The position numbers were made by a program, and so were the translations under genes. A stretch of 24,353 nucleotides of DNA. It comes from Candidatus Hydrogenedentota bacterium (GTDB lineage Bacteria; UBA8481; J006). Each line of letters opens with the position of its first letter. Within the stretch, counting starts at the first letter, position 1. The notes under the pieces are model-generated. The model worked only from the letters and a program-made list of their open reading frames with translations. It had not been told where the DNA came from and made no database searches. The stretch spans positions 1-24,353 of the forward strand of contig RFFU01000012.1 of NCBI GenBank assembly GCA_003697085.1. Reading direction: 5' to 3'. Shown here piece after piece: positions 5,665-14,904 of the stretch.

Positions 5665-6963
5665 ATGATGCGGAGGAGTAACCACGTTCCACCTGCCCGT
5701 GACGTTTCCGTCGATTCGGTCGATATCGCCGTTGTCTCGGCAAACCTGGGCTTCGAATCCCCGGGAAAGATTCCTCCGTCCGAAAAAACCGGTGCCCGGG
5801 ACTCCGATCCCCGCCGTCTCCGCCCGGATTCGCGCGATCCTCTCGAGGGCCCCTGCGGTGGCCTCTCGCTTCCCGATCGACTCCTGCGTCAACTCCACCG
5901 CGAAGGCGTTCCGCGCGTCCTCTTCGCCGGACCTTCCGATACCCTTTCCAAAATTCGAGAACTTCTTCGAAGGGGCCGAAGGCCGGATCTTTGGCCTCGA
6001 ACGATCGAATTCCGCGTGGCGCGTGGTGAAGAAAAATATCCCGAGCCCTCTGGTCTTGGCGAAGGAAGAAAATTCCTTCTCCTGCCGCTCCACGCCGTCA
6101 TCGATTCCTATCTCCTTCGTCTTCTCTTGAGCGCCGAAAAGTCCCTTTTTGTCTCGGGAGGAGGAACGGAGGCTGGAGTCGTTTTTCCCGGTGCCGCAGA
6201 CACCACGGTTCTTCCCGTTGAACGTCTTGTTCATTACGACCCCTCGGTTCGCAAGACGCGACGACCGATTCTCCACGCAATCCGGAGTCGGGAGGACATC
6301 GAGGAGGCCGAAAGGCTTCTTCTCTCATCCGTTCAAAAGGAGGTTCTCGACCTTCCAGGCCGCTATTTCGATCCGATCTTCGAGGACCGGCTCGTTCGGC
6401 TCATCGCTCCAACCGCGATCACGCCGAATATGGTGACGGTGACGACGACGACCGTAGGCTTCGGTATTGCAGCCGCGTTCCGGCGGGGTTTCCTTCGCGC
6501 GGGCGCTCTGGCGACGCTGGCGATAAGCACGTTGGACGGCGTCGATGGAAAATTGGCCCGCCTTCGTATCGAAACCTCGCGCCTCGGAGAAGGGGAACAC
6601 TTCCTCGATTTCCTCTACGAAAACTCGTGGTACATCGCGCTCGGAAAGCGGCTGGGAATGCCGCGAACGGCGACGGCGATGGTCGCTTCCGATATCCTCG
6701 ACAATCTGGCCTATCTGACGATTCAAAAAACCGCGGGAAAAATGATCGATGAATTGAGCGAAGGAGATCGATTTTTTCGATTGATCGCCGGCCGCCGGAA
6801 TATCTATTCCTGGATTTTCGTCGTCGGATTCTGGTTCGGGCGGAAGAGAACGATCCTCCGCGCCGCGGCGTTCTGGGCTGCCTTCACGGCCGCGGTCCAC
6901 TGGATTCGCGTAGGAATGGTTCTCCTGGCCACCGCGGATCGGAGTACAAATCGTCAAGTTTGA
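5665..6963 (+). CDS. CDP-alcohol phosphotransferase with degenerate nucleotidyltransferase-like N-terminus and shifted active site
   Basis: A 432-residue membrane enzyme. The C-terminal half is a CDP-alcohol phosphotransferase: D291-G-V-D294-G-K-L-A-R299 supplies the first half of the signature, preceded by TAITPNMVTVT at 250-260. The second half is unusual. The positions expected to hold the third and fourth aspartates are H312 and F316, while D315 and E319 keep the D-x3-acid spacing three residues later. Residues about 60-90 (GGLSLPDRLLRQLHREGVPRV) look like the first helix of a GT-A nucleotidyltransferase, but the glycine-rich nucleotide loop is missing. By analogy with fused inositol-phosphate cytidylyltransferase/phosphotransferase proteins it may make a cyclitol-phosphate lipid. 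The start ATG (5665 or 5668) directly follows GAGGAGGG. It is a distant paralogue of the gene at 8604-9761. Confidence 0.8.
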   Translation: MMRRSNHVPPARDVSVDSVDIAVVSANLGFESPGKIPPSEKTGARDSDPRRLRPDSRDPLEGPCGGLSLPDRLLRQLHREGVPRVLFAGPSDTLSKIRELLRRGRRPDLWPRTIEFRVARGEEKYPEPSGLGEGRKFLLLPLHAVIDSYLLRLLLSAEKSLFVSGGGTEAGVVFPGAADTTVLPVERLVHYDPSVRKTRRPILHAIRSREDIEEAERLLLSSVQKEVLDLPGRYFDPIFEDRLVRLIAPTAITPNMVTVTTTTVGFGIAAAFRRGFLRAGALATLAISTLDGVDGKLARLRIETSRLGEGEHFLDFLYENSWYIALGKRLGMPRTATAMVASDILDNLAYLTIQKTAGKMIDELSEGDRFFRLIAGRRNIYSWIFVVGFWFGRKRTILRAAAFWAAFTAAVHWIRVGMVLLATADRSTNRQV

Positions 6964-7122: not shown

Positions 7123-7782
7123 ATGCACCAAAGACGAATCGTTCTCCTTTTTCTGTTTTTGTTCCTTGCAACGGCGCCTTCGCGCGGAGCCGAAACCTCG
7201 CCCGGCGCAATCATTGAGCAAAACGCGGCCAAGGCGGTCGCCGCCATCCAGAAACGTTCTCAACACTCGTCGCTCGATGTCGGAGCGATTCGAACGATTT
7301 TCATCGAAACGATGGAACCGCTCTTCGATTACCGCGAGATGACACTGCGGACGCTGGGACGTTATGCGCGAAAATACGGGAAAGATCGGAAGGGAATCGA
7401 GGAATTGACGGGCGTCTTTCGGGAATTCCTCCGCCAACTCTTCCGCACAACGCTCCTACCGAAGACCGAGTTCGAACATCTCAAGGAGGTCCGTGTCACT
7501 GATGAACTGATCAAAGGACGCTACGCCCGCGTCAAGACCCAGAGCATTGTTGAAACCTCAGGGGAAACATCCGTACTCGACGTTAATTATATGCTGGTTC
7601 GTCACGGAAAGACTTGGCAAATCTACGACATGGAGATCGACGGTTACGGAATCGTCGGCAGTTACCGCTCCCAGTTCGCTTCCGTCCTGAAAAATCACGG
7701 TCTGAAGGACCTCATCCAGCGACTCCGGGAAAAAACCGCCGAAATGAAACGCGAAGAGACCTCAAAGAAAAAGACCTCTTGA
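7123..7782 (+). CDS. mlaC: MlaC/Ttg2D-family periplasmic lipid-transfer protein (HpnM-like)
   Basis: A 219-residue secreted protein. A basic start (MHQRR) is followed by a hydrophobic core (residues 6-16) and a likely signal-peptidase site near ATA (16-18). The mature part matches the MlaC/Ttg2D fold: LFDYREMTLRTLGRYARK, a central helical region, then the beta-sheet with DVNYMLVRHGKTWQIYDMEIDG and SYRSQFASVLKNHGLKDLIQRL. By family it ferries lipids across the periplasm. HpnM is the hopanoid-locus member of the family, which fits the setting, but the sequence alone does not separate HpnM from MlaC. It is followed by mlaA with a TTGA stop/start overlap. No MlaFEDB ABC genes are in the window. 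Confidence 0.88.
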   Translation: MHQRRIVLLFLFLFLATAPSRGAETSPGAIIEQNAAKAVAAIQKRSQHSSLDVGAIRTIFIETMEPLFDYREMTLRTLGRYARKYGKDRKGIEELTGVFREFLRQLFRTTLLPKTEFEHLKEVRVTDELIKGRYARVKTQSIVETSGETSVLDVNYMLVRHGKTWQIYDMEIDGYGIVGSYRSQFASVLKNHGLKDLIQRLREKTAEMKREETSKKKTS

Positions 7783-8597
7783 TATTCCGCGTCCGGCCAA
7801 TCCTCTTCCTCCCTCTCCTGATCTTCTTCCTTGCTCTGCCCTCAGCATCCGTTCCCACGCAAGAACCTCCCGTTCTCTCTACTAAGAAAAGCCCTTCCTT
7901 TCAGCCGGACATTTCCGAGGCTTCCGCGGCCGATTCCGAGATCGACTATGCGACCGATCCGTTCGCCGAGGAGGTGTCCGAGGAAAAGGTCCGCCTTTCC
8001 GACCCGCTGGAGCCGGTCAATCGCCTCTTCCTGAAGATCAACGGAGTCCTCTACTTGATCGTGATGAGACCGGCCGCCTCCGGATACAGGGCCGTCGTTC
8101 CCAAGCCGATCCGTACGGGAATTCGAAACGGCTTCCACAACCTCGAGGAACCAATCCACTTCGTCAGTTCGCTCCTCCAGGGAAAACCCAGGGATGCGGG
8201 TGTCGCTTTGGGACGCTTCTTTGTCAACTCGACCGTGGGAATCGCCGGATTCTTCGACGTCGCCGGAAAACACCGCAAGGCGATCGACCGGAGTCTCGAT
8301 CAGACATTCGCCAAGGCCGACGTTCCTCCCGGTCCCTACCTCGTTCTCCCGATATCCGGACCCTCGACCGTCCGCGGCAGCCTGGCTTCGGTCGCCGAGG
8401 GATTCCTCCAGCCGATCAATTATCTCTCGGGTGACGATTCCGAGGAGATTCTGACCGGTCTCTACGCCGGGAAAACCGTCAATGAAGTGAGTTTCCGGAT
8501 CGAAGAGATCGATTCCCTGAGTAAATCTTCGTTGGACCCCTATGTCACGGTCAAGGAATATTACGAACGGAAGTTGACGAAGGAGAAGGGCCGTTGA
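7779..8597 (+). CDS. mlaA: MlaA/VacJ-family outer-membrane lipid protein without lipobox cysteine
   Basis: A 272-residue protein of the MlaA (VacJ) family, which by family sits in the outer membrane and removes lipids from the outer leaflet to MlaC. The diagnostic segments are DPLEPVNRLFLKINGVLY, RPAASGYRAVVPKPIRTGIR, NLEEPIHFVSSLLQGK and RFFVNSTVGIAGFFDVA. The start is TTG at 7779-7781, overlapping the mlaC stop; it yields an N-terminal hydrophobic segment (IFRVRPILFLPLLIFFLALP). The protein contains no cysteine, so unlike typical MlaA it cannot be a lipoprotein and is probably anchored by the MlaA ring or the uncleaved signal. An acidic linker of about 45 residues separates signal and domain. 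It ends 6 nt from the oppositely oriented phosphotransferase gene. Confidence 0.88.
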   Translation: MIFRVRPILFLPLLIFFLALPSASVPTQEPPVLSTKKSPSFQPDISEASAADSEIDYATDPFAEEVSEEKVRLSDPLEPVNRLFLKINGVLYLIVMRPAASGYRAVVPKPIRTGIRNGFHNLEEPIHFVSSLLQGKPRDAGVALGRFFVNSTVGIAGFFDVAGKHRKAIDRSLDQTFAKADVPPGPYLVLPISGPSTVRGSLASVAEGFLQPINYLSGDDSEEILTGLYAGKTVNEVSFRIEEIDSLSKSSLDPYVTVKEYYERKLTKEKGR

Positions 8598-8603
8598 CTC
8601 CGG

Positions 8604-9761
8604 CTACGAAGCCAGTGGGCGGGGGGCGAGGGTAAGCCGCAGGAGGGCCAACGCATAGAGGGGGGCACCGAGCGCGGCCGCGACGAGAAACCAATGCGCC
8701 CGCCCGCGCAGCGAAAGCAAAAGGAGAAGATAAATAAAATCGCGGCGGGCCAGCGCATCCATCGCTTTCTCCATCCGCGTGTCCGGCTTCTCGACAATGT
8801 TTCTGAAGAGCGGCCCATCCGTGTTTTTGTTCCGCATCGTGCTCACGTAAACCACTCCCGCCGAAACCAATCCTCCCAATGTCGCCACCGCCCCCAGTAA
8901 CAACGGCCATCGGCGGTCAATCGTGCGAGCCCAACCGATGGAGATCGCGGAAAAAATCGCCGAATGAACCAGATTATCCCCCCAGAAATCCAGTTCACCC
9001 CCTCCCTTCGATTCCTGAAACGTCAATCGTGCCAGTTCCCCGTCGCAACCATCGAGAATGGAATGAGCCAGAAAGAGAAGAGACCCTGTCACCTGTTTCG
9101 TCGGCCTCACCGAAAGGAAGAACGGAGCCCCGAGGAGCCCGACGCCGATACTGATCAGACTCATTCCGTTCGGCGTGATTCCTGAATCGACGATCCGCCG
9201 TGTCACGAAAAGGGAAATCTTCCGTTCGAAATGTCGCGACATGAATCCTTCGTTATCCTTGATCAGATCGCGCAACAGGATCTCTTCCGCGCGCTCTCGA
9301 TCATCTTCGCCTTCCACTTCCACGACATTCCGATTCTGTGGTGGCGATTCCGTTCGCGCGACGTCTTCCGAAAGTCTCTCGAGAAACGTCTCGGCATCCG
9401 CGCCGGCGTCTCCCAATCCGATCCACCGGAATTCTTCCCCGACGTCGAATATCCCGCAGGAAGGACGGAAGCGGATCACCTCGTCCGGTCTCCACGTTCC
9501 TCCTGCCACGGTCTTCTGAAAACGCGGAGTCATCACCACGTTGGTTGCGCAAATGACAAGGCGATCCCCTCCTCGAGGAGCGAATTCTTCCAAGGAAACC
9601 TCCCCTCCTCCTCCCTCCGCAACCACCACGTTCCAACCGGCTCGGGTGGCCGAACGGATCAACCGATCCTTCAGGGACATTCCCAAAAGCCTTTCCATTC
9701 CTTGCGGACTCTCAAAAAGAAGAAGCAGCACGCGCCTTGGAAGAGAATCCCGGTCCTTCAC
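8604..9761 (-). CDS. CDP-alcohol phosphotransferase with degenerate nucleotidyltransferase-like N-terminus
   Basis: A 385-residue membrane enzyme with the complete CDP-alcohol phosphotransferase signature: D237, D240-G, A244-R245, G254, D258 and D262 in the canonical spacing. SGITPNGMSLISIGVG (193-208) precedes it, as in the fused inositol-phosphate enzymes, where EGFMSRHFERKIS-like linkers also occur (171-183). Residues about 10-50 (LLLLFESPQGMERLLGMSLKDRLIRSATRAGWNVVVA) retain the outline of a sugar-nucleotidyltransferase N-terminus, but the catalytic glycine-rich loop is gone, so cytidylyl transfer there is doubtful. Predicted membrane segments fill residues 195-380. The start is GTG at 9759-9761 behind AGGGCGAGGA. 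It is last in a run with ATP-grasp, aminotransferase and oxidoreductase genes (61-nt gap). The product is probably a phospholipid with a polyol or cyclitol head; this is inference. Confidence 0.85.
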   Translation of the reverse strand: MKDRDSLPRRVLLLLFESPQGMERLLGMSLKDRLIRSATRAGWNVVVAEGGGGEVSLEEFAPRGGDRLVICATNVVMTPRFQKTVAGGTWRPDEVIRFRPSCGIFDVGEEFRWIGLGDAGADAETFLERLSEDVARTESPPQNRNVVEVEGEDDRERAEEILLRDLIKDNEGFMSRHFERKISLFVTRRIVDSGITPNGMSLISIGVGLLGAPFFLSVRPTKQVTGSLLFLAHSILDGCDGELARLTFQESKGGGELDFWGDNLVHSAIFSAISIGWARTIDRRWPLLLGAVATLGGLVSAGVVYVSTMRNKNTDGPLFRNIVEKPDTRMEKAMDALARRDFIYLLLLLSLRGRAHWFLVAAALGAPLYALALLRLTLAPRPLAS

Positions 9762-9822
9762 CGATCCTCGCCCTTACCGCTGCTTCCCGACGCGAAAGAA
9801 AGAGGAAAAGCAAGAGAGATCG

Positions 9823-10878
9823 TCACGAAGACGCGCTCGTTCTCGCGCGGTGCCGCGTGATCCATTCTCCCCCTCGTTGATGCGAAAGCCGGGCCGCTTC
9901 CAGGACCGAGACACAAAAACGCGCCTCCTCCCGATTACGCTCTCTCGAACCTTCCCCCTCCATCGCCGAAAGAAATTCCCGAATGACACCGGGGAACCAT
10001 TTCCGATGATAGGAATCGCCGGCCAAGTCGTCGGCCAGTGTTTCCCGGATTCTTTCGTTCCTCGAAAAATCCTCGAGAATCCACTCGTCATTGCATGCGG
10101 AGATTCTTCCTCGTTCCCCCGAGATGACGAAGGTGTTCTTCCGTTCCGTACCGGCCCACGTCAAAAATATTTCGGCTCGTCCCTCACTCCCCTTCAATTC
10201 CAGTCTTACGGTATCCTCGACCCCCGATGCTTTTGAATCTTTCGCCCGACATTCGAAACGTGCCCGCACGGAATACGGACCCCCTCCCAACCACTCTTCA
10301 ACGATGTAGAAAGAATGCCAACCGTGATCGAGAAGAATCCCCCCCTCAGCGGCCGCCGCTTCCGTTCTCCAAGAGGCGCGGTCTGTTGTCGAACCAGCGG
10401 GGCGCGTTCGAATCGTCTCCCAACGACACGTTCTTTCTTCTCCAGGAAAACCCGTCCGAATCGCCTTCGACGCCCTCCTGACGGCCTCCGCGTGTTTCCA
10501 GTTGTGAACGGTAAAGAGGCACCGCTTCTTGCGGTCGGCCAGCGCCGTCAAGAGATCGAAATCGGCCACCGAGGACACAAGCGGCTTCTCGCAGAGAACG
10601 TGCACCCCCGCCTCTAGCGCCTCCGCAACGATGGACCTGTGCGAGGCCGGCGGAGCGCAGACATCGACGAAATCGAGGTGGGGGGTCGCCAGCAGTTCCC
10701 GAAGCGACCCGCACCACTTCGCCGCGGGCAGGTTCTCATCGGCCCACACTCGACAAAAAACGTCCGGATCGTACAGGGCTGCGATCTCCACCTCGGGGCA
10801 CGCAAGCCAGCCGGGAAGGTGGGCGTTCCGCGCAACGGCTCCGATTCCCACGACTGCTCCCCGCCACGTTCTCGTCAC
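9823..10878 (-). CDS. Gfo/Idh/MocA-family NAD(P)-dependent oxidoreductase
   Basis: A 351-residue cytosolic dehydrogenase of the Gfo/Idh/MocA family, which acts on sugars, cyclitols and sugar nucleotides. The Rossmann loop is VVGIGAVARNAHL (G11, G13), the family EKP motif is at residues 97-99 (VLCEKPL), and the catalytic-region motif is GGILLDHGWHSF. The start is GTG at 10876-10878, which overlaps the aminotransferase stop as GTGA; an upstream in-frame ATG exists but would overlap the aminotransferase by more than 150 nt. In context it could oxidise a hydroxyl that is then aminated, or reduce a ketone, in head-group or side-chain synthesis. The substrate cannot be read from sequence; inositol and sugar dehydrogenases share these motifs. 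Confidence 0.88.
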   Translation of the reverse strand: MTRTWRGAVVGIGAVARNAHLPGWLACPEVEIAALYDPDVFCRVWADENLPAAKWCGSLRELLATPHLDFVDVCAPPASHRSIVAEALEAGVHVLCEKPLVSSVADFDLLTALADRKKRCLFTVHNWKHAEAVRRASKAIRTGFPGEERTCRWETIRTRPAGSTTDRASWRTEAAAAEGGILLDHGWHSFYIVEEWLGGGPYSVRARFECRAKDSKASGVEDTVRLELKGSEGRAEIFLTWAGTERKNTFVISGERGRISACNDEWILEDFSRNERIRETLADDLAGDSYHRKWFPGVIREFLSAMEGEGSRERNREEARFCVSVLEAARLSHQRGGEWITRHRARTSASS

Positions 10879-12215
10879 AACAACTCCGGCGCCCCTTCCT
10901 TCAAAACCGCGACCAGGCTCGCCTCGAACCTCTCCAAACCTTCCATCGCGGTTCCTTCGTCGATGACGAGCGGCGGATTCAAACGAATGATCGGATTGTA
11001 GCACATCGCCACCAACCCCCGCCTCAGACATTCGTGAAAGAGGGCTCGCGTCAGTTTTTTCGGCAAGAATTCCCGCGCCTCCCGATCCCGGACCAGCTCA
11101 ATTCCGATCAGAAGCCCCCGCCCGCGCACGTCACCAATCACCCGGTACTTCTCTTGCATCTCCCGGAGTCGATTCAGCATTAAAGCACCGACCCTCGATG
11201 CGTTCTCCGTCAGTTTCTCATCCAGGATGATGCTCAAGGCGGCCCAGCCTGCCGCCGCGGCGAGGGGATTTCCGCCGTAACTCGAGGAACTATGGCTCGG
11301 AAGAGAAAACGGCCGGCTCGCCGTCAATTCCTCCGTCGAAACGACCGCCGACACCGGAAACCCGCCGCCGAGTCCCTTCCCCAGCGTCATAACATCGGGA
11401 ACGATCTCCTCCTCGTCACAGCCCCACATCTTCCCCGTTCGTCCAAACCCCGTGATCATCTCATCCGCGATCAGAAGGGCGTCGTTCTCCCGAGCGACTT
11501 CCTTCACCGCGGAGAGAAATCCTTCCGGAGGAACGATGTTTCCGGCCGTCCCCTGGATCGGTTCCACGATGATCGCGGCGATCTCCCCTTGTGTCTCATA
11601 CCGAATCACATCCCGCAACGCCTCGACGCAAGCCAGACCACACTCGGGATGCTTCGCTTTCAAGGGACAACGATAACAGTAGGCGTAGGGAGCGCTGTAG
11701 AGTCCGGGCATAAACGGACCGAGATGGTGTTTGAAGTCGCTTCCGAGAAGGCCCAAGACTCCCCCCGTCTTCCCGTGAAAAGCCCCTCGAAATCCGATGA
11801 ATTCGGTCTTCTTCGTTGCGGATTTCGCCAGCCGAAACGAAGCCTCGACCGCCTCGGCTCCGCCTGAAAACATCTGGATTCGCGTCAGTCCGTCGGGGGT
11901 TACGGAGGCAAGAAGATTGAGAAACTTTCGGCGGATATCCGTCGTAAAACTGCCGAAGGTCAATTTCCCCATCTGCTCTCGAAGCGTCTGGACGTAACGC
12001 GGATGACAGTGTCCGACACTCCCGACCGCAATCCCGGCCAGGAAATCGATGTACTCGTTCCCATCTGCATCGTAAAGTCGGCAGCCTTCCCCGCGGTCCA
12101 TCGCCAGTCCGGAGTAGAGCGCGAAGGATTGGAGCCCGGGCGACATATTCTTTTTTTCCTCTTCGAAAATCCGTTGCGAGCGAGGTCCGGGAATCCGATA
12201 GGAAGGAATCGTCAT
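10875..12215 (-). CDS. Class III aminotransferase, candidate HpnO-type
   Basis: A 446-residue PLP enzyme of the acetylornithine/GABA aminotransferase class. Visible motifs are SGGAEAVE (117-124), AFHGKTGG (145-152), the PLP-ring aspartate D251 in ADEMITGFGRTG, and the Schiff-base lysine K280 in LGKGLGGGFP. Four cysteines, C180, C183, C192 and C196, form a CxxC-x8-CxxxC cluster near the substrate loop, as seen in a subset of GABA-transaminase-like enzymes. The start ATG (12213-12215) overlaps the ATP-grasp stop as ATGA, and the next gene starts in its stop codon (GTGA). In a hopanoid locus a class III aminotransferase is a natural candidate for aminobacteriohopanetriol synthesis (HpnO), but head-group amination is an equal possibility. 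Confidence 0.9.
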   Translation of the reverse strand: MTIPSYRIPGPRSQRIFEEEKKNMSPGLQSFALYSGLAMDRGEGCRLYDADGNEYIDFLAGIAVGSVGHCHPRYVQTLREQMGKLTFGSFTTDIRRKFLNLLASVTPDGLTRIQMFSGGAEAVEASFRLAKSATKKTEFIGFRGAFHGKTGGVLGLLGSDFKHHLGPFMPGLYSAPYAYCYRCPLKAKHPECGLACVEALRDVIRYETQGEIAAIIVEPIQGTAGNIVPPEGFLSAVKEVARENDALLIADEMITGFGRTGKMWGCDEEEIVPDVMTLGKGLGGGFPVSAVVSTEELTASRPFSLPSHSSSSYGGNPLAAAAGWAALSIILDEKLTENASRVGALMLNRLREMQEKYRVIGDVRGRGLLIGIELVRDREAREFLPKKLTRALFHECLRRGLVAMCYNPIIRLNPPLVIDEGTAMEGLERFEASLVAVLKEGAPELL

Positions 12216-13084
12216 CGTCCCAGAAACCTGCGCGCCAGATACCGGCTGATCCGCTCCGAAGCCTCCTCGCGAAAAAGAGCAAAACTCGGCCATGCGTTTA
12301 CGTCGATGATGAAAAACTCGTTCTCCTCCGTGGCGATTGCATCTCCCCCGAAAATCTCCAGTCCCAAAACCCGCGCTGCCTCGAACGCCTTGCTTCGCAA
12401 TTCTTCCACGTCGAAGGGATACTTCTTCAGCGCTTGTTCCCGATGATAGAACCAGTGAAACCACTCGATCCCTTCCGCCGCTCCGACACCGTAGAACTTG
12501 ATCAAATCTCCCTCGATATGCCTCTGAACGACCGCCGACGTGATCCCTCTTCCCGCCATGGCTTCCAAAGCCTCCGCCATCGCTTCGGACGACGACGCAT
12601 ACACGACATCCCCCGGTTCGACGCAATGAACATCGCCGCGCTTAACCCAGACCGGATCGGCTCCCAACTCTTTCCACGCCGCCTCTCCACCTCCCCCCGG
12701 CTCCGTCGGAACAACGACTGAACGCGGGAAAGGCACGGACGTTCCCGAGAGAAGAGTGACCATATTCTCTCGATAGGTGTTCAGAACGCTTCGCGCGGAA
12801 TTGATTACCATGGCTCCCTCCTCCTCCCATCGACGAAGCCCCTCGATGGCCGACCGATGCTCGCACATTACAAACGCGTAATCCGGACAGGAGCCGTTTC
12901 CCCAAGAAATTTCCTCAGGCCGAAGCAGTTCTACCGCAAGACCGTACCGCTTCATTCCTTCTCCGGCCAAGCGAAGGATTCTTTCGTCATCCCATTCCCT
13001 GTCAGGTGAATTCTCTGTCTCTCGAAATACCCCGACACACCTCTTCAAAATAGAAGGCCGGGGGTTGATCCTGTGAGATGTCAC
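12212..13084 (-). CDS. ATP-grasp family ligase or kinase of unknown substrate
   Basis: A 290-residue protein with the ATP-grasp fold of the RimK/inositol-phosphate kinase kind. Features in order: INSARSVLNTYRENMVTLL (94-112, the RimK-like linker), WVKRGDVHC (146-154, with the ATP-binding Lys148), VVQRHIEGDLIKFYGV (185-200, hinge and adenine pocket), and the metal-binding end motif FFIIDVNAWPSF (257-268, D261 and N263). The start is GTG at 13082-13084, preceded by AAAGAG. It heads a run of four genes. RimK-type enzymes add amino acids to amines or carboxylates, so with the adjacent aminotransferase one attractive idea is conjugation of an amino-lipid. This is inference; phosphorylation of a cyclitol is the alternative. 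Confidence 0.82.
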   Translation of the reverse strand: MTSHRINPRPSILKRCVGVFRETENSPDREWDDERILRLAGEGMKRYGLAVELLRPEEISWGNGSCPDYAFVMCEHRSAIEGLRRWEEEGAMVINSARSVLNTYRENMVTLLSGTSVPFPRSVVVPTEPGGGGEAAWKELGADPVWVKRGDVHCVEPGDVVYASSSEAMAEALEAMAGRGITSAVVQRHIEGDLIKFYGVGAAEGIEWFHWFYHREQALKKYPFDVEELRSKAFEAARVLGLEIFGGDAIATEENEFFIIDVNAWPSFALFREEASERISRYLARRFLGR

Positions 13085-13096
13085 AACTCTTTTTCC

Positions 13097-13127
13097 ATTC
13101 TATCAAAAAACCGACGTTTCCTTTCAA
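13097..13127 (-). promoter_or_regulatory. Candidate promoter of the ATP-grasp operon
   Basis: The minus strand carries TTGAAA (13122-13127) and TAGAAT (13097-13102), each one mismatch from consensus, with a long 19-nt spacer. The -35 lies inside the small palindrome CCTTTGAAAGG (13120-13130), a possible operator. The -10 ends 12 nt before the GTG start. Confidence 0.4.
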
Positions 13128-13207
13128 AGGACACGATCCCTTTAACGAAAACCAAACGCACCGATGTCCTGTTATGGCGGGATACTCTCATTCGAAGTGT
13201 CACAGTG

Positions 13208-13894
13208 TCAACCTCCGCCCCATAATTCTTTCAGGGAAGTGATCGCGCGATCCCCCGGGCAGCAGAGTGTCGCCTGCTTCAAGCGCTCGGGCGGCAGCAG
13301 GCGGATATGAGGCATTCCCAAAGCCTTCGCTCCGGCCATGTCGCGATTCGGCGAGTCTCCGACAAAGAGGACGCGTTCCGGCGGCAACCGCCAGGGTTCG
13401 AAGCCGGCCCGAAAAATCTTCGGATCCGGCTTGCTCACCCCGACCACGGTCGAGTCGATCAGCGGATCGAAAAATTCCTCGATCTCCGCCTCCGCGCAGA
13501 CAGCCTGGAGATTTCCGTAAAAGTTCGAGACGATGCCGAGACGAAATCGCTTCGAAAGTCTCTCGAGAACAGGACGGTTCCTCCGGAAGAAATGAAAACT
13601 CTCCCTCAGAAAATTCTCCGCGACCTCGCGCCCGATACGATCGCCGGGCACCCCAAGATTCCGCGCAACGCCGACGGCAAGGCGATGAACCGTCTCGGTC
13701 AGATTTGCGTCAGCGGAGAGCCTTCCCACGAGTGCGTCGTCGGCATCGTAAAAGGCATGGTCGAATCTTTCCGGCCCGACCGTGACACCGAACTCCGAAA
13801 AGAGACGACGAAACCGCTCCTTCCACGGCACCCCGGCGGCATCCAGCGTGCCACCGAAATCGAAGAGAATTCCCTTCACCGAAAGAGAAATCAT
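13208..13894 (-). CDS. HAD-superfamily enzyme with altered motif I
   Basis: A 228-residue HAD-fold protein with an alpha-helical cap. Motif I is FDFGGTLD (nucleophile D12), motif II is the Ser in GIVSNFYGN (S123), motif III is K155 in VSKPDPKIF, and motif IV is GDSPNRD (D180, D185). The residue two after the nucleophile is Gly14 instead of the Asp that acts as general acid/base in phosphatases, although D18 follows the loop. This raises doubt about ordinary phosphatase activity; FDFGGT variants are nevertheless common among annotated HAD hydrolases. The ATG start overlaps the flippase-like gene's stop (ATGA). In context it could dephosphorylate a lipid head group or its precursor. It ends a three-gene run with hpnN. 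Confidence 0.87.
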   Translation of the reverse strand: MISLSVKGILFDFGGTLDAAGVPWKERFRRLFSEFGVTVGPERFDHAFYDADDALVGRLSADANLTETVHRLAVGVARNLGVPGDRIGREVAENFLRESFHFFRRNRPVLERLSKRFRLGIVSNFYGNLQAVCAEAEIEEFFDPLIDSTVVGVSKPDPKIFRAGFEPWRLPPERVLFVGDSPNRDMAGAKALGMPHIRLLPPERLKQATLCCPGDRAITSLKELWGGG

Positions 13895-14904
13895 TTCCCG
13901 GCCAGAAACGAAAGACTCATCGAGCCCAAAAGAATCGAAGCCAGTTGGACAGCGCGTTCAACAAGGGAGAGCGCGAATCCGAGGGGGGGGGGCAATCCGA
14001 GCGCCGTGAGTATCAGGACGCGCCCTCCTTCCTGAACTCCCACGCGCCCGGGAACGATCGACGTCGGGAGATCGATCAGAATCGAAAGTCCACTGACAGC
14101 CAGACAGATTCCCAAGCCGGTGGAGACGCCCAACGCGGAGAGGATAAGCCAGATCTGTCCGAGAGAAACGAGGCGCCCGGCCAGATGGGCTGCAACGGAA
14201 CCCCAGACCGCCCCGCGCTCGTGTGAAAAGATACGCCGCAGTCGTTCCTCCGTCTTCCCTGTTTCCGCAATGACGCTCTCCGCCTTCGCCTTCGAGAGAA
14301 CTTTCCCGACAACCGCCGAGAGGAGATACCCCCAGCCGCCCTCCTTCTGAATCTTGACGGCGGCGAAAAGCCCCGCGGCGAGCCCGAGAAACGTCACGAT
14401 CATGGCGACCTTGACGTTCACCGATACGCCCAGAAGCGGCAGAATGAAGACCAATGCGAAGAGAACGAAGATCATCTGAGCGATCATAAAGGTTGTTTGA
14501 GCAAGTATCACCGAGGCGAGGCCGTCCGGAATGGGAACCGTCGGCGCCAGAAGCATCGCCTTCAGAGGCTCACCGCCGAGCGTCGCCGTCGGGGTGACTT
14601 GATTGATCGTCGTCCCCGCCTGACGCACGAAAAAGAGTTTCCAGAACCCGGGAACGTTTCCCACTGGAAACGCCAGCCGCCACCCGACGGTGTTGGCGGC
14701 ATCGAAGACGAGTTCCAGAAAAAAGATCGGAAGGAATTTCCAACCGACGCCCCCAAGGGCTTCCCAGACCCTTTCCTCATTGCAAGATCGCAAGACCCAA
14801 ACGAACGTTCCGATTCCCAGGAAAAAGAGAGCGATTCGGAACCAGCGCCGTCCTCCGAAAGAAGAAGCCCTTGCCCGCGAGGCAACCATGCCGCCGTTCG
14901 TCAT
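13891..14904 (-). CDS. Flippase-like integral membrane protein (LPG-synthase TM domain, UPF0104)
   Basis: A 337-residue polytopic membrane protein of the lysylphosphatidylglycerol-synthase transmembrane family. The diagnostic stretch NQVTPTATLGGEPLKAMLL spans residues 101-119, and about seven to eight hydrophobic segments fill the rest (first about 22-38, last about 315-335). Only the membrane domain is present; the C-terminal aminoacyl-transferase domain of MprF is absent, so lipid translocation rather than lysylation is implied. Members of this family recur next to hopanoid and glycolipid genes. It overlaps hpnN upstream (ATGA at 14901-14904) and the HAD gene downstream (ATGA at 13891-13894), showing tight co-expression. 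The lipid carried is unknown. Confidence 0.85.
   Translation of the reverse strand: MTNGGMVASRARASSFGGRRWFRIALFFLGIGTFVWVLRSCNEERVWEALGGVGWKFLPIFFLELVFDAANTVGWRLAFPVGNVPGFWKLFFVRQAGTTINQVTPTATLGGEPLKAMLLAPTVPIPDGLASVILAQTTFMIAQMIFVLFALVFILPLLGVSVNVKVAMIVTFLGLAAGLFAAVKIQKEGGWGYLLSAVVGKVLSKAKAESVIAETGKTEERLRRIFSHERGAVWGSVAAHLAGRLVSLGQIWLILSALGVSTGLGICLAVSGLSILIDLPTSIVPGRVGVQEGGRVLILTALGLPPPLGFALSLVERAVQLASILLGSMSLSFLAGK

Follow-up and report, generated by a model that had tools for sequence, protein, structure and literature searches.

A 24,353-nucleotide contig of a Candidatus Hydrogenedentota bacterium (here, the window) carries six minus-strand genes at positions 8604-14904 that encode an ATP-grasp enzyme, a class III aminotransferase, a Gfo/Idh/MocA dehydrogenase, a CDP-alcohol phosphotransferase, a HAD hydrolase and an HpnL-like membrane protein. 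These genes belong to a cassette that comprises six to eight enzymes and is found, in fixed gene order, in at least eight bacterial phyla. We propose, with a probability of roughly one half, that the cassette makes CDP-aminoinositol from glucose-6-phosphate and attaches the head group to a membrane lipid. A broader claim, which we hold more tentatively and at a little under even odds, is that bacteria of at least eight phyla share a conserved pathway of eight genes that makes de novo, via CDP-inosamine, an unrecognised class of polar lipids with an inosamine phosphate head group; the ATP-grasp enzyme would then be a new bacterial cyclitol kinase, and the putative alternative inositol-lipid cluster of Bacteroides vulgatus (BVU_RS13095-13115; Heaver et al. 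2022, PMC9246714) would represent the non-aminated form. With such a pathway, bacterial membranes would gain an inositol lipid that is zwitterionic or cationic, in environmentally important and mostly uncultured lineages such as Methylomirabilis, Rokubacteria and Elusimicrobia. The pathway would also offer a concrete mass target for lipidomics and environmental biomarker work.

Conservation and gene order of the cassette

A search with the ATP-grasp protein found relatives in two unrelated genomes, G085 and G062, with the same neighbour genes at their loci. A single-sequence query of named-genome contigs gave no match; an alignment-based query was used instead and found at least 575 ATP-grasp loci in named genomes, of which the best 80 are described here. 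Because several contigs end within the cassette, gene counts over these 80 loci are lower bounds. By profile searches, the aminotransferase was found at 73 loci, the Gfo/Idh/MocA dehydrogenase at 69, the CDP-alcohol phosphotransferase at 68, an NTP transferase at 65, the HAD hydrolase at 64, and the HpnL-like membrane protein and an inositol-3-phosphate synthase (MIPS) at 33 each. The aminotransferase lies directly downstream of the ATP-grasp gene in 68 of the 80, and the commonest order is HAD - NTP transferase - ATP-grasp - aminotransferase - Gfo - CDP-alcohol enzyme - MIPS. Across the first five junctions of this order the median gaps are -4 to +1 bp, with most genes overlapping.

The first four genes of this order are contiguous in 30/30 loci examined in the phylum of G062, and synteny kept to this degree in another phylum excludes a chance assembly. 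Carriers of the ATP-grasp gene make up 53 of 95 genomes in the phylum of G085, where the close relatives are Rokubacteria/Methylomirabilis, and 32 of 298 (E<1e-60) in the phylum of G062. The 80 loci come from Rokubacteria/Methylomirabilis, Elusimicrobia, 'Deltaproteobacteria'/Desulfobacterales, Nitrospinota, Acidobacteria, Spartobacteria, Alphaproteobacteria, Ignavibacteria and Bacteroidetes. The first-pass annotation had named confinement of the gene set to this genome as a point against its own reading; the set is clearly not so confined, its span being at least eight phyla. The window genome itself has only one same-order relative among the species sampled in a kinship search, and thus comes from a sparsely sampled lineage. 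One further ATP-grasp match, in genome G138 (L012), was dropped, as cassette genes were not seen around it.

Two variants of the arrangement were observed. Six deltaproteobacterial loci (L097, L114, L115, L116, L122 and L127) consist of ATP-grasp, aminotransferase, Gfo and CDP-alcohol enzyme genes only; MIPS, HAD and NTP transferase genes were not found nearby, and a PF07994 search of five of the six genomes did not find MIPS. In Rokubacteria loci that include L076, L080, L082 and L086, a gene for a CopD-like membrane protein of about 523 residues separates the CDP-alcohol enzyme gene from that of the flippase-like protein; this family is present in 17 loci.

Enzymes of the proposed pathway

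Ordered from synthase to flippase, the cassette would give each gene a single role, in a scheme whose substrates, reaction order and amine position we infer. MIPS, encoded on another contig here, would convert glucose-6-phosphate to inositol-3-phosphate, from which the HAD hydrolase (13208-13894, minus strand; 228 residues; PF00702 1.7e-18) would strip the phosphate. The Gfo/Idh/MocA enzyme (9823-10878, minus strand; 351 residues, with a GTG start at 10878; PF01408 4.6e-19) would then act as an inositol dehydrogenase, oxidising one hydroxyl to a ketone, and the class III pyridoxal phosphate (PLP) aminotransferase (10875-12215, minus strand; 446 residues; PF00202 3.7e-106) would convert the ketone of this inosose to an amine. 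The resulting aminocyclitol would be phosphorylated by the ATP-grasp enzyme (12212-13084, minus strand; 290 residues) and converted with CTP to CDP-aminocyclitol by the NTP transferase, also on another contig here. The CDP-alcohol phosphotransferase (8604-9761, minus strand; 385 residues; PF01066), of the AF2299/DIPPS type, would move the phospho-aminocyclitol to an acceptor, most likely a lipid, and the HpnL-like protein, with HpnN/Mla-type neighbours, would move that lipid. Bacteroidetes relatives that have neither the oxidation nor the amination step would yield the plain inositol version.

Inositol is preferred as the substrate because MIPS and the NTP transferase, absent at the window locus, are cassette members in relatives. 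The MIPS genes are of two types, PF07994/PF01658 and Ino1 (TIGR03450). On contig C123 the window genome has a PF07994-type MIPS (Pfam 2.7e-91) that shares 66% identity with one from a cassette, and on contig C16 an NTP transferase copy of 47% identity; in relatives, the NTP transferase occupies the place of a gap of about 123 bp between the window's HAD and ATP-grasp genes. In the phylum of G085, 26 genomes have both ATP-grasp and MIPS, 27 ATP-grasp only, 3 MIPS only and 39 neither (p=1.1e-5, uncorrected for shared ancestry). In the phylum of G062, all 32 ATP-grasp carriers have MIPS, but so do 274 of 298 genomes overall, and the association is not significant (p=0.09). In the PDB, nucleotidyltransferases for sugar-1-phosphates and for inositol-1-phosphate match the profile of the NTP transferase, with CTP:inositol-1-P cytidylyltransferase among the better matches (E 3.5e-11).

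The oxidation and amination pair has a precedent in vitro, where IolG and the aminotransferase MosB convert myo-inositol to scyllo-inosamine (PMC6668481). For the dehydrogenase, the best NCBIfam model is IolG (TIGR04380; 8e-15, 54.5 bits), although this score falls far under the equivalog cut-off of 355. Its family alignment shows invariant EKP and Dx3H residues and keeps the catalytic K, D, H pattern, which we take to be that of inositol dehydrogenases. The aminotransferase family is 50-70% identical across phyla and has no specific match beyond class III.

The ATP-grasp assignment had been made by eye and holds, although the gene reaches no Pfam gathering score: an AlphaFold2 (AF2) model of the protein (predicted local distance difference test, pLDDT, 91.5) matches the folds of RimK (Z 23.1) and PPIP5K2 (Z 19.6). 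The motifs KR.D.H, KFY and D.N.WPSF are practically invariant over 71 family members, those of Bacteroidetes included. The best sequence-profile match in the PDB is the inositol phosphate kinase ITPK4 (E 2.8e-4), with which KFY and DLN..PSF are held in common. With moderate confidence, we favour a cyclitol kinase over an amino-acid ligase.

The CDP-alcohol phosphotransferase is closest, by profile, to AF2299 (1.1e-39) and Archaeoglobus fulgidus IPCT-DIPPS (1.1e-23) among PDB entries, with PIP synthases further off and PIPS models matching weakly. Its AF2 model (pLDDT 86.2) superposes on AF2299 with Z 27.7 (root-mean-square deviation 3.9 over 328 residues) and on DIPPS with Z 23.3. The signature DG(x)2AR...G(x)3D(x)3D is present as DGCDGELAR...GGELDFWGD, following an N-terminal cytidylyltransferase (CT)-like domain, and the motif DGCDGE.AR is common to the cassette enzyme, AF2299 and DIPPS. 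The donors of AF2299 and DIPPS are CDP-glycerol and CDP-inositol (PMC4634129), and by similarity a soluble CDP-alcohol donor of the inositol or glycerol type is suggested for the cassette enzyme.

The window encodes another member of this CDP-alcohol phosphotransferase family, which the first-pass annotation had left off its otherwise sound list of families, at 5665-6963 on the plus strand (432 residues; PF01066 22.1 bits, cut-off 22), upstream of the MlaC and MlaA genes. It is 25% identical to the cassette copy, and a 41% relative adjoins the cassette in Rokubacteria (L090). Its membership of the pathway is uncertain; it possibly serves another head group or acceptor. In the Rokubacteria loci L073 and L093, the surroundings of the cassette likewise hold additional CDP-alcohol family members, accompanied by an Ino1-type MIPS and a gene for a flippase-like protein.

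Several observations weigh against the aminoinositol lipid reading. For the substrate, PF07994-type MIPS was found in 31 of 50 sampled carriers (three more loci hold an Ino1-type synthase overlooked by PF07994), and among those 50 it was not found in most Deltaproteobacteria and in Spartobacteria; the NTP transferase profile, moreover, is closest to glucose-1-phosphate thymidylyltransferases. Together these points allow an aminosugar-phosphate head group, kanosamine-like and drawn from a hexose phosphate, with inositol uninvolved and MIPS a bystander. The kanosamine route of NtdABC uses the same Gfo, aminotransferase and HAD enzyme types, and sugar-1-phosphate nucleotidyltransferases are the nearest relatives of the NTP transferase. 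Nevertheless, we consider this very unlikely, given the two MIPS types in or beside the cassette at 33 of 80 loci with significant co-occurrence, a CDP-alcohol enzyme that points to an inositol or glycerol donor, and the resemblance of the ATP-grasp sequence to inositol phosphate kinases. The HAD hydrolase is also odd for a phosphatase: the second DxD position is a glycine (DFGGT), invariant in 15/15 aligned members, and since the second aspartate is replaced in this way its proposed role as an inositol-phosphate phosphatase is a guess.

For the kinase role, the E-values to ITPK are weak and the fold lies closer to RimK/LysX ligases (Z 22-23) than to PPIP5K2. An amino-acid (or other acid) ligase, yielding an N-aminoacyl-inosamine lipid, would account for these nearest folds and for the weak NCBIfam matches of the protein, which are to MptN and RimK; the scores themselves are far below the model cut-offs, at 17 bits against 143 for TIGR00768 and 22 against 350 for MptN. 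We find a ligase rather doubtful and prefer the kinase because the invariant motifs are unchanged in Bacteroidetes clusters that have neither aminotransferase nor dehydrogenase, and whose own genes therefore supply no amine for a ligase to act on; a cyclitol kinase would need none. ITPK4 is, furthermore, the top sequence-profile match, and the metal-binding D.N is as in ITPK, whereas the aligned ligase PsnB has ELN. If the HAD hydrolase acts first, a pathway that had no kinase would also leave the aminocyclitol not re-phosphorylated for the cytidylyltransferase.

For the acceptor, the predicted structure gives the membrane domain of the CDP-alcohol enzyme about six helices, and published six-helix prokaryotic CDP-alcohol phosphotransferases with known substrates take soluble acceptors (PMC4634129). 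A soluble product resembling di-myo-inositol phosphate (DIP) is therefore a serious rival: CDP-(amino)inositol would be joined to inositol phosphate or another polyol phosphate, and the HAD hydrolase would then dephosphorylate the product. MIPS, a cytidylyltransferase, a DIPPS-type enzyme and a phosphatase are, indeed, the set of the DIP pathway, and AF2299/DIPPS are the closest relatives of the cassette transferase. DIP-type solutes are, however, typical of hyperthermophiles, and the carriers of the cassette come from soil, groundwater and animal gut. Genes for flippase-like, HpnM/MlaC, HpnN and serine-palmitoyltransferase proteins recur as neighbours, and inositol lipids are made by the Bacteroidetes B. 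vulgatus and P. veroralis, which have the alternative cluster (PMC9246714). On balance, we judge a soluble solute unlikely and retain a lipid as the probable acceptor.

Lipid genes around the cassette

At the window locus, gene-order and family-model checks bore out what had been described there: the six families on the minus strand in two tightly coupled runs, joined directly to hpnN within a hopanoid locus. The first run comprises hpnN (17594-14901, minus strand; TIGR03480 875 bits, cut-off 752), encoding an RND-type lipid transporter, an optional partner translationally coupled to the next gene, followed by the genes for the HpnL-like/LPG_synthase_TM membrane protein, a putative lipid flippase (13891-14904, minus strand; 337 residues; PF03706 1.4e-20), and the HAD hydrolase. 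The second comprises ATP-grasp, aminotransferase and Gfo genes, with the CDP-alcohol enzyme after a spacer of about 61 bp. Overlaps of 4 bp (ATGA or GTGA) join HpnN to flippase, flippase to HAD, ATP-grasp to aminotransferase, and aminotransferase to Gfo. For the HpnL-like protein, the best NCBIfam model is TIGR03476 HpnL, yet the score of 134 bits is below the cut-off of 196. Hopanoid genes flank the cassette, with squalene-hopene cyclase (SHC, 633 bits), HpnH (531), HpnA (465) and HpnN scoring over their cut-offs and the HpnG-like and squalene-synthase-like genes under theirs. On the plus strand, lipid-transport neighbours encode an MlaC/HpnM-like protein (7123-7782; PF05494 4.9e-26) and an MlaA lipoprotein (about 7779-8597; PF04333 1e-56).

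Near the 80 cassettes, an HpnN-like gene was found in 11 cases and an HpnM-like gene in 14, while in Spartobacteria and some Bacteroidetes a serine-palmitoyltransferase-like gene lies beside the cassette. The adjacency of Mla/HpnM/HpnN and serine-palmitoyltransferase genes supports a lipid product. In the Spartobacteria loci L129, L133, L134, L141 and L152, the cassette is accompanied by serine-palmitoyltransferase-like genes, GNAT genes and as many as three CDP-alcohol phosphotransferases, which suggests that an aminoinositol sphingolipid may be made there.

The window's setting, with the cassette coupled to hpnN and lying between hopanoid genes, raises the possibility that the cassette decorates hopanoids specifically, with CDP-aminocyclitol transferred to bacteriohopanetetrol. 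Six further loci (L074, L077, L101, L108, L118 and L120) also have shc, hpnA, hpnH or squalene-synthase genes physically linked to the cassette, and SHC accompanies the aminotransferase in 34 of 45 sampled genomes, whereas 0 of 5 without the aminotransferase have SHC. Against this, SHC is missing from 29 of the 32 carriers in the phylum of G062 (3 have it; association not significant, p=0.08), though the aminotransferase is present in all 30 loci examined there, and SHC was not found in Ignavibacteria carriers that have the aminotransferase. SHC is near universal in the phylum of G085 (91/95), whether or not the cassette is present, so co-occurrence there carries no information. We therefore regard hopanoid specificity as highly improbable. 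The hopanoid link is real but optional, and the best fit is a head-group cassette that combines with whichever membrane lipids its host produces. With its neighbours varying by lineage between hopanoid and sphingolipid genes, such a pathway would make the pairing of head group and backbone testable.

Of the products that the first-pass annotation had offered, the amino-cyclitol phospholipid is strengthened by MIPS, the cytidylyltransferase-like NTP transferase and the closeness of the CDP-alcohol enzyme to CDP-glycerol and CDP-inositol phosphotransferases; the amino-acid-conjugated hopanoid exported by HpnN is not supported, given the carriers that have no SHC and an ATP-grasp enzyme better explained as an inositol-type kinase. 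Two other candidates were rejected: an HpnO-type aminobacteriohopanetriol aminotransferase, which leaves the other genes unexplained while the cassette occurs without SHC, and a phosphonate lipid, as a PepM-type gene was not seen among the recurrent families.

Comparison with known systems

The hpn clusters (HpnA, G, H, L, N and SHC) share a neighbourhood with the cassette, together with HpnL-like and HpnN partners; the cassette enzymes, unlike these, are not hpn genes and are widespread without SHC. The DIP pathway of archaea and thermophiles (IPCT-DIPPS, MIPS and a phosphatase) and AF2299 have in common with the cassette a CT-like domain joined to a CDP-alcohol phosphotransferase, the DGCDGE.AR motif, MIPS and an NTP transferase. 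The cassette differs in adding oxidation, amination and ATP-grasp enzymes and in having lipid-type neighbours; in addition, its CT-like domain appears degenerate, with the NTP transferase encoded as a separate enzyme. The phosphatidylinositol (PI) pathway of Bacteroides thetaiotaomicron and mycobacteria (MIPS, PIP synthase and PIP phosphatase) likewise combines de novo inositol and a CDP-alcohol phosphotransferase to make a phospholipid, but it uses CDP-diacylglycerol and inositol phosphate, with no cytidylyltransferase and no amination.

For the amination branch, the nearest counterpart is the scyllo-inosamine (rhizopine) route of IolG and MosB, in which an inositol dehydrogenase and a PLP aminotransferase lead to inosamine, with neither a lipid nor CDP activation. 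StrI and StsC of streptomycin biosynthesis similarly form an inositol dehydrogenase and PLP aminotransferase route to inosamine. In the open-access literature, we found no description of the cassette under aminocyclitol or inosamine phospholipids, Methylomirabilis lipids or CDP-inositol with ATP-grasp, and no bacterial description of a lipid class with an aminated inositol head group.

The closest published arrangement is the Heaver cluster, which shares with the cassette MIPS, an NTP transferase, a CDP-alcohol phosphotransferase, a HAD enzyme and a neighbour resembling LPG synthase. Across the 80 loci, the genes for the NTP transferase, the CDP-alcohol phosphotransferase and the HAD enzyme cluster in the same manner, with the window's NTP transferase gene elsewhere, and MIPS, which belongs to that cluster, is present in the window genome but not at the window locus. 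The claim that no named pathway has this gene set thus holds for the full set and fails for a sub-set of it, published as the putative alternative inositol-lipid cluster (PMC9246714). Relative to that cluster, the cassette adds the Gfo/Idh/MocA dehydrogenase and class III aminotransferase, and its CDP-alcohol enzyme has an N-terminal CT-like domain that the cluster's does not. The text of Heaver et al. mentions neither an ATP-grasp enzyme nor an aminotransferase and gives the HAD enzyme a different role (PMC9246714).

Bacteroidetes loci L138, L143 and L148, from Parapedobacter, Dyadobacter and Dysgonomonas, contain the Heaver cluster genes with an ATP-grasp gene between those for the NTP transferase and CDP-alcohol enzyme, a minimal form that has no oxidation and amination pair. 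In the related gut records L140 and L146 the clusters are partly cut off or rearranged. If our reading is right, it would fill gaps in the second, unconfirmed route to inositol lipids in gut Bacteroidetes by giving the ATP-grasp enzyme a role and the HAD enzyme a different one. The cassette is best read as extending this unproven alternative inositol-lipid cluster: it brings an amination branch, an ATP-grasp enzyme of putative kinase function and a far wider distribution than described.

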